Part shown: piece after piece, positions 2,612 through 22,777 of the stretch | Numbering within the stretch: position 1 is the stretch's first letter | How the letters are laid out: every line of letters begins with the position of its first letter | Assembly (NCBI RefSeq): GCF_037975245.1 | Contig: NC_092579.1 | Span: forward strand, 29,907,666 to 29,971,665 | Length of the DNA: 64,000 bases | DNA from: Apostichopus japonicus | Lineage: Eukaryota; Echinodermata; Holothuroidea; Aspidochirotida; Stichopodidae | Direction of reading: 5' to 3' | The notes under the pieces: generated by a model | Database searches by the model: none | The model's input: the letters and a program-made list of their open reading frames with translations, nothing else | Told to the model about the DNA's origin: nothing | Program-made: the position numbers and the translations under genes

Positions 2612-4479
2612 GAGGTCAAACGCTTCGCTTTCATTCTTAGTGTATTGGTTGTCACTTTCGTTTCCCTGTCACTGTTCGCTATGCAGAATCAAACACTGAA
2701 TGAATACATGAAGTCTTGGAATGACGAGGTTTACGTCAGCAATAGGCCCATTAGCAGGTAAAATCCCTCTCCACTCGTAAAAGAAACGCTCTTTAAAGGC
2801 AACGTCTCTTTGTAACTGCCGGTAATCAGTAGTGAAGTTATCGCTTTTATAAAATGTTGATATCTGGGGACTGATGCCTCAATCTTAGGCATGCCGAAAG
2901 TAAGTCTGCCCCATAGATTCCGTAAAGTACTCTGAGAGCCTCTGTGGTCCCTTTTGAAAACGGATAAAAAACACAGTGATGTAAGTGGCAGTGTCAGTGG
3001 CAGCTAGCCCATTCTATTTTTCTTAATATTGATTTGCTTTGTATAATATATATATTATAACACATATATAAACTTATATGTATATGTATATCTATATATA
3101 TATATATGTATATATATTAAATGCAATATATATATATATATATATATTAAATGCAATATATATACATATATATATTATAACAGTTTATACAATGTATACA
3201 ATATAACACATATATTATATTAACATATATGTATATATATATATATATATATATATATGTAATATAACAGTTATATCCTATATTATTACAGTTATATTAT
3301 GTTTCATATCTTATAACTGTATGTTCAGCGTTGATTTGACAACTAATTCTGTTTTTGTTTTCTGTTTCTTTCTTTTTAATGAATCTAGTTTTCTGTCTCT
3401 TTTGTTTTTTTTTTTCTCTATTTTTATCTGGAAATAGACAAAATGTGACAACGATTAGAAGCAAGTTGTTAAATGCTAGCGTCCTACAAAATGAAATGCC
3501 CAGACCTGCCACTTGTACACGTCAAGAAAACGTTGTATACATTAAGACTCACAAGACAGGTAGCACCACGGTCCAGTCTATTATGTACCGATATGGATTC
3601 GCTCGGAACCTTTCGTTTGTCGTTCGGAAGACGAATCCCCACAATGGGCACATTAGGTACATGAAAGTCACCAAAGATAGCCCTAGAAAGATGTTCTTGC
3701 CTCTCCTCGCAGCTGGTGATGAATGTTCATTCCGTGGTTACAATATGTCGGCCATTCACGTTGTCCACGATAGATCGGTCTTTGAGACTTTCATGAACCC
3801 GGGTACGAAATACATCACGATATTACGTAACCCCGTCACTCAACTGCAGTCGGCATTCGTCTTTTTCAATCTTAGTAAGAGTACGATTGGTAACACAAGT
3901 GAAATTAAGTTGTCAAACTATATGAAGGGAAGCAGTTGGAAAAATTCTCCTTACGGTAGAAATAGCCAATCGAAAGATCTCGGTTTGGCAAGGGATGATT
4001 TTGACAATGAATCTCAGATTGAAAACTTGATCAATCGATTGAATAAGGAACTCGATCTGGTTCTCATCCACGAGTATTTTGAGGAATCTGTGGTCCTTTT
4101 TTCGAGGGAATTCTGTTGGAATTTAGAGGATTTAGCATACACTGTCCAAAACAATCGCAGTAAACAGAAGCCAGCGCTATCTCCAAAAGTGCTTGAGAAA
4201 ATCCGGATTTTTAATCATGCGGACTTTCGTCTTTACGATCATTTCAATAAGACCTTTTGGAAACGAGTCGAAGAACAAGGACCTGGCTTTTGGCGAGATC
4301 TTAGAGAATTCAAGAAGTTACAAAATGAGACAATGTATAGATGTTTCAAAAATTCCAACATTCCGGAAGGATACGTTCCTGGGACAAATATTTCCAATTA
4401 TTGTGATCGCTACTACGGCGGTTTGTTTTTATTTAAAAATATTTACAAGAAACAAAATAAGAATTGTACGCAAACATGA
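2612..4479 (+). CDS. Galactose-3-O-sulfotransferase-like protein, copy 1 (5' partial)
   Basis: Predicted type II Golgi sulfotransferase that moves sulfate from PAPS to galactose of a glycolipid or glycan (Gal3ST / galactosylceramide sulfotransferase family). Two exons are seen. Exon A, 2,612-2,757, follows CTACAG and precedes GTAAAA; exon B, 3,438-4,479, follows GGAAATAG. They join in phase 2 (AG|A, Arg), giving 395 residues. Exon A encodes a basic start (EVKR) and a hydrophobic anchor (about residues 5-24). Exon B carries the 5'-phosphosulfate loop KTHKTGSTT (about 85-93), the 3'-phosphate motif with RNPVT (about 179-183), and about ten N-glycosylation sequons. The C terminus is basic and Cys-containing. 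No in-frame ATG precedes the anchor before a stop at 2,576, so a short 5' exon ending in phase 0 is missing. A longer exon B reading from 3,355 runs into intron. The exact acceptor is unknown. Confidence 0.85.
2758..3437 (+). other. Intron of sulfotransferase copy 1
   Basis: 680-bp phase-2 intron with donor GTAAAA and acceptor AATAG after a long pyrimidine tract. Its middle (about 3,045-3,260) is TA-rich microsatellite. The equivalent introns are about 786 bp in copy 2 and 544 bp in copy 3, mostly differing in TA-tract length. Confidence 0.75.
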
Positions 4480-4954
4480 AGCAAATTTCACAAAGGGGGA
4501 CAAAATCTTGACCAAAAAACAAAACCTGTTTTACAAAGTCGATAAACGTGGTTTGATATTTTTGAGAAAGGCACGTTCCATGAACGACGATGCATCTTCG
4601 GAAAGTGACTGCAAACCAGGTTCACAGCACACAAGTTATATTGATTTCATCGTAGACTCAAAATGAATCAATTGAAAATCGAGTGCCATGTACGTAGTCT
4701 TACTAACTGTTTCCATGTACTTTGCGTTATGAGTTGAACGGATCGCCCATCCACTTTTGACAAAGTAGAAAGTACACTGTAAAGATTAGCATGACCTCGC
4801 CTACTGCAGCAATACCGTATATGTTTCCACTTTGCGTTATGAGTTAAACGGACAAAGTAGAAAATCCACTGTAAAAAAATGGACATATGCCGATCATTTG
4901 TAGTGTGAAAGAATGAACATAAAGCAGAATTTTCGTCTTGATATTGTATAGGTT

Positions 4955-4960
4955 AATAAA
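4955..4960 (+). promoter_or_regulatory. Possible polyadenylation signal, sulfotransferase copy 1
   Basis: AATAAA about 475 nt after the stop codon, in conserved 3' flank. In copy 2 the same place (about 12,531) reads ATTAAA, a common variant, so the site is kept in function if not in sequence. Confidence 0.4.
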
Positions 4961-5330
4961 AAGAAGGGAATATATATATATGTAATATTTATATATGCAT
5001 GCATATATTTAGTATAGGATACATTGTGCCTGCCAGGTCAGGAGAAAACGCAGATTAAATTGACATGTATGTTTGCTTCTCTTTTCAGTTTTCGTTGCTA
5101 TATCAACTGCATGATATTCATCTTTTCTTAAATATGTTTTGATTGGTTCATTTTGTTGCACATTCATCACTTTATTTAATCAGCTTATTTTATGATTGTC
5201 ATATTATTTTACAACTGTTTTACAACATTTTACAACATGCTACATGTTTTTGTAACTGCTTTGCTTTGTTCATTTTTTCATTTTGTTGTGCATTCATCAC
5301 TTCATTTAATCAACTTCTTAAGGTATCTTC

Positions 5331-20925: not shown

Positions 20926-20970
20926 ATAGTAGTATAGTAATAGTAGAAGTAGTAGTAGTACTAGTAGTGC
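20926..20970. repeat. TAG tract upstream of exon A, copy 3
   Basis: Right half of the shared trinucleotide tract split by the hAT-like insertion; the left half is at about 18,700-18,792. Confidence 0.7.
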
Positions 20971-21051
20971 CCCGCTTTCATTTTTCCCTCTGGCCTTTCC
21001 ATATAATATAATTGATTACAATGTGTTGATGTTTTGCTACACCATCTACAG

Positions 21052-22777
21052 GAGGTCAAACGCTTCGCTTTCATTCTTAGTGCATTGGCTGTCACTTTCG
21101 TTTCCCTGTCACTGTTCTCTGAGAATGAAGCACTGCATGTATTATACATGAAGTCTTGGAATAACGAGGATTACGTCAGCAATATTAGCAGGTAAAATCC
21201 CTCTCCTCGCGTACGCTCTTTAAAGGCAACGTTTCTTTGTAACTGCCAGTAATCAGCAGAAAAGTAATCGCTTTTATAAAATGTTGATATCTGGAGACTG
21301 ATGCCTCAATCGTAGGCATACCGAAAGTTAGTCTGAGTAATCCGAGAGCCTCCGTTGTCCATTTTGAAACGGATAAAAAAAAAACACAGTGATGTAAGCC
21401 ATGACAAAATGTCAGTGGCAGCTAGCCCATTTTTATATTTATTAAATTGATTTGCTTTGTATATTATAAAAAATATAACACAAATATAAGCATATATATA
21501 TAATTATGTATATATATATATATATATATATTGTATAAACATATATATTATGTATCTATGTAATATAACAGTTATATCCTATATTATAACAGTTATATTT
21601 TATCTTATAACTGTATGTTCAGCATTGATTTCTGTTTTTGACAACTAATTCTGTTTTTGTTTTCTGTTTCTTTCCTTTTAATGAATCCAGTTTTCTGCTT
21701 CTTTTGTTTTTTTCTCTATTTTTATCTGGCAATAGACAAAGCGTGACAACAATAAGAAGCGAGTTTTTAAATACAATCGTCCTACAAAATGAAATGCCCA
21801 GACCTGCCACTTGTACACGTCAAGAAAACGTTGTATACATTAAGACTCACAAGACTGGTAGCACCACGGTCCAGTCTATTCTGTACCGATATGGATTCGC
21901 TCGGAACCTTTCGTTTGTCGTTCGGAAGACGAATCCCCACAATGGGCATATTAGGTACATGAAAGTCACCAAAGATAGCCCTAGAAAGATGTTCTTGCCT
22001 CTCCTCGCAGCTGGTGATGAATGTTCATTCCGTGGTTACAATATGTCCGCCGTTCACGTTGTCCACGATAGATCGGTCTTTGAGACTTTCATGAACCCGG
22101 GTACGAAATACATCACGATATTACGTAACCCCGTCACTCAACTGCTGTCGGCATTCGTCTTTTTCAATCTGGGTAAGAGTACGATTGGTAAAACAAGTGA
22201 AATTAAGTTGTCAAACTATTTGAAGGGAAGCAGTTGGAAAAATTCTCCTTATGGTAGAAATAGCCAATCGAAAGATCTCGGTCTGGCGAGGGATGATTTT
22301 GAAAATGAAACTCAGATTGAAAACTTGATCAATCGATTAAATAAGGAACTCGATCTGGTTCTCATCCACGAGTATTTTGAGGAATCTGTGGTCCTTTTTT
22401 CGAGGGAATTCTGTTGGAATTTAGAGGATTTAGCATACACTGTCCAAAACAATCGAAGTAAACAGAAGCCAGCGATATCTCCAAAAGTGCTTGAGAAAAT
22501 CCGGATTTTTAATCATGCGGACTTTCGTCTTTACGATCATTTCAATAAGACCTTTTGGAAACGAGTCGAAGAACAAGGACCTGGCTTTTGGCGAGATCTT
22601 AGAGAATTCAAGAAGTTACAAAATGAGACAATGTATAGATGTTTCAAAAATTCCAACATTCCGGAAGGATACGTTCCTGGGACAAATATTTCCAATTATT
22701 GTGATCGCTACTACGGTGGTTTGTTTTTATTTAAAAATATTTACAAGAAACAAAAGAAGAATTGCGCGCAAACATGA
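21052..22777 (+). CDS. Galactose-3-O-sulfotransferase-like protein, copy 3 (5' partial)
   Basis: Exon A is 21,052-21,191 and exon B is 21,736-22,777, joined in phase 2 like the other copies. The anchor reads EVKRFAFILSALAVTFVSLS. The stem differs most: SENEALHV where copy 2 has AMQNQTLHV. Exon B keeps KTHKTGSTT and RNPVT and is intact to the stop. Early exon B is changed (RSEFLNTIVL against RSKLLNASVL in copy 1), removing one glycosylation site. The hAT-like insertion ends 126 bp before exon A, so if the start-codon exon lies left of it, the first intron gained more than 2 kb. Activity is inferred from retained PAPS motifs only. Confidence 0.85.

Follow-up and report, generated by a model that had tools for sequence, protein, structure and literature searches.

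Tandem duplication and recombination across most of the gene unit probably shaped a small array of sulfotransferase-like genes in Apostichopus japonicus

Here we analyse a stretch of 64,000 nucleotides from the sea cucumber Apostichopus japonicus (assembly GCF_037975245.1, contig NC_092579.1, positions 29,907,666 to 29,971,665 of the forward strand), which we call the window and in whose own numbering all positions are given. The window holds three tandem units on the plus strand (2612-4479, 10213-12180 and 21052-22777; copies 1, 2 and 3), each with an intact exon A and an intact exon B. Our analyses make it quite probable that these units form a small array of genes resembling type II galactose-3-O-sulfotransferases, shaped by tandem duplication and by unequal crossing-over or conversion of most of the unit, together with purifying selection. 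In the order of events that we infer, tandem duplication would have enlarged the array, and one or more unequal crossing-overs or conversions would have taken in the greater part of the unit, introns too, stopping close to the gene's 3' end; silent and noncoding sites would later have diverged by about 5-8%, and purifying selection would have retained the catalytic domain and the reading frame. The tandem duplication is genuine if unexceptional, the recombination that we propose is at unit scale, and the data do not show homogenisation specific to the exons.

In copy 1, exon A (2612..2757) starts in phase 0 and encodes the hydrophobic stretch FILSVLVVTFVSLSLFA, a probable membrane anchor, followed by a stem, as judged from splice signals, translation and hydropathy, and exon B (3438..4479) encodes the sulfotransferase domain and carries the stop codon. 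The same two exons lie on the plus strand at 10213..10352 and 11139..12180 in copy 2 and at 21052..21191 and 21736..22777 in copy 3, with the domain and the stop again in exon B. Exon A of copies 2 and 3 was delimited from splice signals and translation, exon B of copies 1 and 3 from the Pfam match, splice signals and translation, and exon B of copy 2 from the Pfam match, translation and codon counts. Exon A measures 146, 140 and 140 bases in copies 1, 2 and 3, and exon B 1042 bases in each. The splice junctions correspond across all three copies, the bases preceding the acceptor of exon B differing by one in copy 3, and the joined frames of exons A and B are open in every copy and terminate at the same TGA stop. 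The introns and flanks of the units contain many insertions and AT microsatellites. Homology is not confined to the span 2612-22777: around copy 1 it starts at about 836 and runs to 5755, and past copy 3 it continues as far as 25400. An earlier note on this DNA had proposed three tandem sulfotransferase genes on one strand with intact frames, and the exons, their junctions and the domain match in all three copies bear this out; the divergence that it described in introns and flanks, through insertions and microsatellite change, is likewise seen, and its proposal that a recent tandem duplication produced the three copies is supported by their sequences.

All three copies match PF06990 (Galactose-3-O-sulfotransferase), with E values of 4.7e-50, 7.6e-49 and 7.9e-50 and scores of 171.1, 167.1 and 170.4 bits, far over the curated cut-off of 27 bits, the matches covering about positions 24-343 of the 402 in the profile. 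By simple hydropathy the most hydrophobic 17 residues are encoded by exon A, with a mean of 2.3-2.6 against 1.1-1.2 for the next best stretch elsewhere in the protein. A lysine-bearing loop, KTHKTGSTT, and the serine that follows ILRNPVTQL, that is ILRNPVTQL[LQ]S, are kept in each of the copies. We take these, placed by motif, as the putative binding loop for 3'-phosphoadenosine 5'-phosphosulfate (PAPS) and the putative 3'-phosphate site; a PAPS-binding loop with a lysine and a 3'-phosphate-binding serine are given as general sulfotransferase features in PMC11625862. A search of the PDB by sequence matched no solved structure.

The vertebrate members of the Galactose-3-O-sulfotransferase family are GAL3ST1-4. 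The genes described here resemble the family in the profile match, in the single strongly hydrophobic N-terminal stretch and in both motifs, present in all copies, and they differ from it in that the anchor has an exon of its own, the start codon apparently lies in another exon, and three copies stand in tandem. The hydrophobic stretch, found in all three copies, together with a candidate start exon, seen for copies 1 and 3 and not for copy 2, would fit a type II (Golgi-type) membrane topology and a location in the Golgi. The encoded enzyme probably attaches sulfate to galactose, galactose as the acceptor being suggested by the family, and from this membership it is plausible that amplification raised the dosage of galactose sulfation.

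The first line of evidence for the history proposed here comes from the comparison of silent and noncoding divergence, for which we give values for the pairs 1-2, 1-3 and 2-3 in this order. Exon B is about 97% identical at the DNA level in each pair (30, 31 and 34 differing sites of 1042), a similarity far beyond chance in a BLAST comparison of the window with itself. The earlier note had described exon B as nearly identical at silent and replacement sites alike, which the counts do not confirm. Silent changes amount to 10/214, 15/214 and 12/217, and the silent divergence estimated by the Nei-Gojobori procedure (dS = 0.048, 0.074 and 0.058) is about two to four times the replacement divergence (dN = 0.025, 0.020 and 0.027), with dN/dS ratios of 0.51, 0.27 and 0.47. 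The idea that the exons are frozen at silent sites was rejected on these pairwise silent changes and on the 14 purely silent differing codons among 334 capable of silent change. Exon A, with about 28 silent sites and 2, 0 and 2 silent differences, is too short for judgement. For the noncoding side we used a strict set made up of the proximal 5' flank, both intron ends and the untranslated region (UTR), excluding the intron microsatellite region and an ambiguously aligned stretch at 2953-3011. In this firmly aligned set 43/565, 43/536 and 42/509 sites differ (0.076, 0.080 and 0.083), and the difference from silent sites is not significant in any pair (Fisher's exact test, P = 0.20, 0.76 and 0.22). 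With insertions removed, silent and noncoding divergence are thus near equal within error on the strict set, the outcome that the earlier note had named as refuting its view, although the exons may be slightly more alike than the rest.

Insertions and deletions (indels) tell of the constraint on the protein. Exon B has none, and the four in exon A (3, 3, 3 and 6 bases) are all in frame, so that no frame-breaking indel is observed in the two exons against about 24 expected at the noncoding rate; the expectation counts runs of gaps and treats the ambiguous gaps at 3301-3303 as three separate events, and this number and the one given below for copy 2 are hence upper values. Exon B looks frozen mainly because its replacement sites have been held and because indels are absent from it, as purifying selection would give. 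Exons that look strikingly more alike than the disordered introns beside them can accordingly result for the most part from selection acting on the protein and its reading frame, combined with the turnover of microsatellites and insertions.

The second line of evidence comes from the flanks of the units. On the 3' side, copies 1 and 2 share a flank that runs from 4822 to 5755 on the plus strand in copy 1 and is found in copy 2 as the pieces 12399-12595, 13435-13742, 13774-13998 and 14213-14245, with about 5% divergence in the three blocks compared. The 3' flank of copy 3 (23283..25400, plus strand; collinear pieces 23283-23362, 25118-25207, 25243-25274 and 25281-25400) differs from the other two by about 21-22% in the three blocks common to all. 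In these same blocks 11/212, 44/201 and 42/201 sites differ, so that against a divergence of about 8% in the gene body the flank stands out in pairs 1-3 (P = 1.2e-6) and 2-3 (P = 8e-6), with no difference in pair 1-2 (P = 0.27); a fourth block, found for pair 2-3 only, differs at 29/119 sites. Downstream of 4818 (copy 1) and 23084 (copy 3) the flank matches stay in order, copy 3 being the remote one. Because local alignment biases the blocks toward similarity, the contrast between flank and body is conservative. Within the body, once the intron microsatellite and the ambiguous stretch are set aside, 122 sites set one copy apart from the others; they show no change along the gene in the identity of the odd copy and no mosaic (maximum chi-square permutation, P = 0.51), whereas with one flank block added the copy singled out shifts toward copy 3 (P = 0.0055). 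The boundary of recombination is reached at the latest at 4818-4873 in copy 1, which corresponds to 23084-23283 in copy 3, and is not sharp; it lies somewhere between the end of exon B and a point just beyond the 3' UTR.

Upstream of the genes the relationships are different, for there it is copies 1 and 3 that share plus-strand blocks. The first, 836..1030, contains a candidate first exon and differs at 8/162 sites, its part 839-1003 matching 18002-18166 at 95%. The second, 1968..2176, matches 18211-18419 with 3/209 differences, the lowest among the noncoding blocks compared, and the third, 2211..2431, matches 18566-18780 at 89% and ends in a TAG-repeat tail that also matches short stretches before copy 2. 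Neither the first two blocks nor the non-repeat part of the third were found before copy 2. Copy 1 consequently resembles copy 3 upstream and copy 2 downstream, a pattern that unequal crossing-over or conversion across most of the unit would account for. The pattern is not explained by constraint acting solely on introns and UTR, since pair 1-2 shows no step in divergence at the 3' flank. Ectopic recombination at the scale of the unit is supported by these comparisons. The block at 1968-2176, within what would be the first intron, has diverged less in pair 1-3 than exon B has at its silent sites (P = 0.006) and may be a regulatory element, the trace of a recent exchange or a repeat.

Several observations weigh against recombination of most of the unit as we propose it. 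Silent divergence lies below noncoding divergence in all three pairs, and when the ambiguous intron stretch is restored the probabilities become 0.041, 0.473 and 0.143, significant in one pair of three. With one flank block added to the series of sites, the best single cut falls at 4352-4419, close to where exon B ends and earlier than the boundary given by the flanks, which is therefore poorly placed, and the 3' flank blocks are short and were located by local alignment. The evidence comes from the sequence of one assembly, and no relative was found when one genome-contig collection and one viral-contig collection were scanned. Because no relative was found to serve as an outgroup, the direction and age of the events are not fixed.

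A matter that bears on copy 2 in particular is where the genes begin. Exon A was considered as the first coding exon and rejected: an in-frame TGA lies upstream of it in all three copies, with 11 (copy 1) or 12 (copies 2 and 3) codons between, none of them ATG. We scanned the plus strand of the window for ATG followed by one of five chosen codons, then GT and then A, T or G, and obtained four matches, two of which, at 929 and 18092, stand at an equivalent place in the first block common to copies 1 and 3. The candidate first coding codons (929..934 in copy 1 and 18092..18097 in copy 3, both on the plus strand) read ATG AAG, precede a GT donor and would splice in phase 0 into exon A to give MK-EVKRFAFILS.... 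An alternative start ATG within the block 1968-2176 was set aside by eye, its donor looking weak.

The block with the candidate first exon was not found between copies 1 and 2, and copy 2 could be a decaying pseudogene that has lost its first exon by recombination, leaving copies 1 and 3 as the only working genes. We regard this as a possibility to be taken seriously, if somewhat doubtful, and it is compatible with the history preferred here. In addition to the missing block, the private codon changes of exon B point in its direction, with ten replacement to two silent in copy 2, against 7:4 in copy 1 and 7:7 in copy 3 (37 of the 41 differing codons, the four at which all three copies differ having been dropped). 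A weak sign of the same kind is that AATAAA at 4955 in copy 1 corresponds to ATTAAA at 12533 in copy 2; ATTAAA is a common polyadenylation variant. Decay is opposed by the open frame, the splice signals and the PAPS motifs, all of them retained. Two further results sit against decay and also against our own reading where it touches this copy. The replacement excess is not significant (Fisher's exact test, copy 2 against copies 1 and 3, P = 0.15), and an open frame would be unlikely if copy 2 had long been dead: with neutrality throughout its life 5.5 frame-breaking indels would be expected and the probability of none is 0.004, an estimate based on only three observed events, one of them in the ambiguous gap. 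Taken from these sequence features, copy 2 is probably less constrained or truncated; it may be truncated at its 5' end or borrow a first exon, and would then be either recently released from constraint or expressed via another first exon.

Gene conversion restricted to the exons, by which the earlier note had explained the likeness of the three copies, is in our judgement improbable. The lower silent divergence in all pairs, with its one significant value when the ambiguous stretch is included, speaks for it, as does a 157-base run in exon B (4195-4351 in copy 1) over which the three copies do not differ at all (P = 0.019 when every site is counted), the lone exception among tract tests in the gene body that were otherwise negative. 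The strict comparison gives exon-limited conversion no support, nor does the absence of a mosaic within the body; the longest runs within exon B are unremarkable (P = 0.55, 0.32 and 0.13), the longest run of codons without silent change has a probability of 0.44, and the upstream noncoding block at 1968-2176 is closer between copies 1 and 3 than are their silent sites in exon B. On these grounds we take it as not supported, though a mild form may have acted.

A false assembly, in which divergent haplotypes of one or two genes were taken for three units, appears very unlikely. The divergence of about 5% between copies 1 and 2 in the 3' flank would agree with it, since values of this size are within the heterozygosity range of some marine invertebrates. 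Yet the sequences that follow copies 1 and 2 stop matching past 5755 and 14245 in a plus-strand search that reached 10000 and 17800, the upstream regions of the two differ, the first-exon block of copy 1 being absent from the sequence searched before copy 2, and the 3' flank of copy 3 is more than 20% divergent. Also very unlikely is a single locus offering alternative catalytic domains, in which the start exon of copy 1 would be spliced to exons A and B of copy 2 and copy 2 would be drifting toward a new acceptor.

The array has a parallel in tandem gene arrays that evolve by unequal crossing-over and conversion, such as the spiggin/MUC19 genes of sticklebacks (PMC4989455). The likeness lies in successive duplication into a tandem array; the protein is unrelated, the array in the window is small, and its history is drawn from one genome. 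Expansions of carbohydrate sulfotransferases in sea cucumbers are reported in PMC13228809, and there too a sulfotransferase family has expanded in an animal, the genes concerned being CHST genes, of a family other than the one here. A tie to the sulfated glycans of echinoderms is a lead from that paper and not a result of our analysis. None of the literature matches listed was recognised as describing this array, which as biology is a modest and unexceptional case of an animal multiplying a gene that probably serves glycan sulfation.

The window as a whole holds many AT microsatellites, with a G+C content of 35-42% by 4-kb step. A tRNA-like element (Rfam RF00005; tRNA-Cys with anticodon ACA according to ARAGORN) lies at 671-742 and is possibly the head of a short interspersed element. 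Between copies 2 and 3 an open reading frame without a Pfam match (17452-17778) may resemble gag-like parts of retroelements, and about 750 bases past the stop of copy 3 there is a satellite of 16 copies of 37 bases (23524-24114). Farther along, a threonine/proline-rich repeat reading frame (36081-36650) is shortly followed by one with an IgGFc-binding domain (PF17517; 37034-38356), a second satellite at 46442-46907 consists of 21 copies of 22 bases with three overlapping open frames on the minus strand, and a reading frame at 61836-62699 matches the PF01490 amino acid transporter family.

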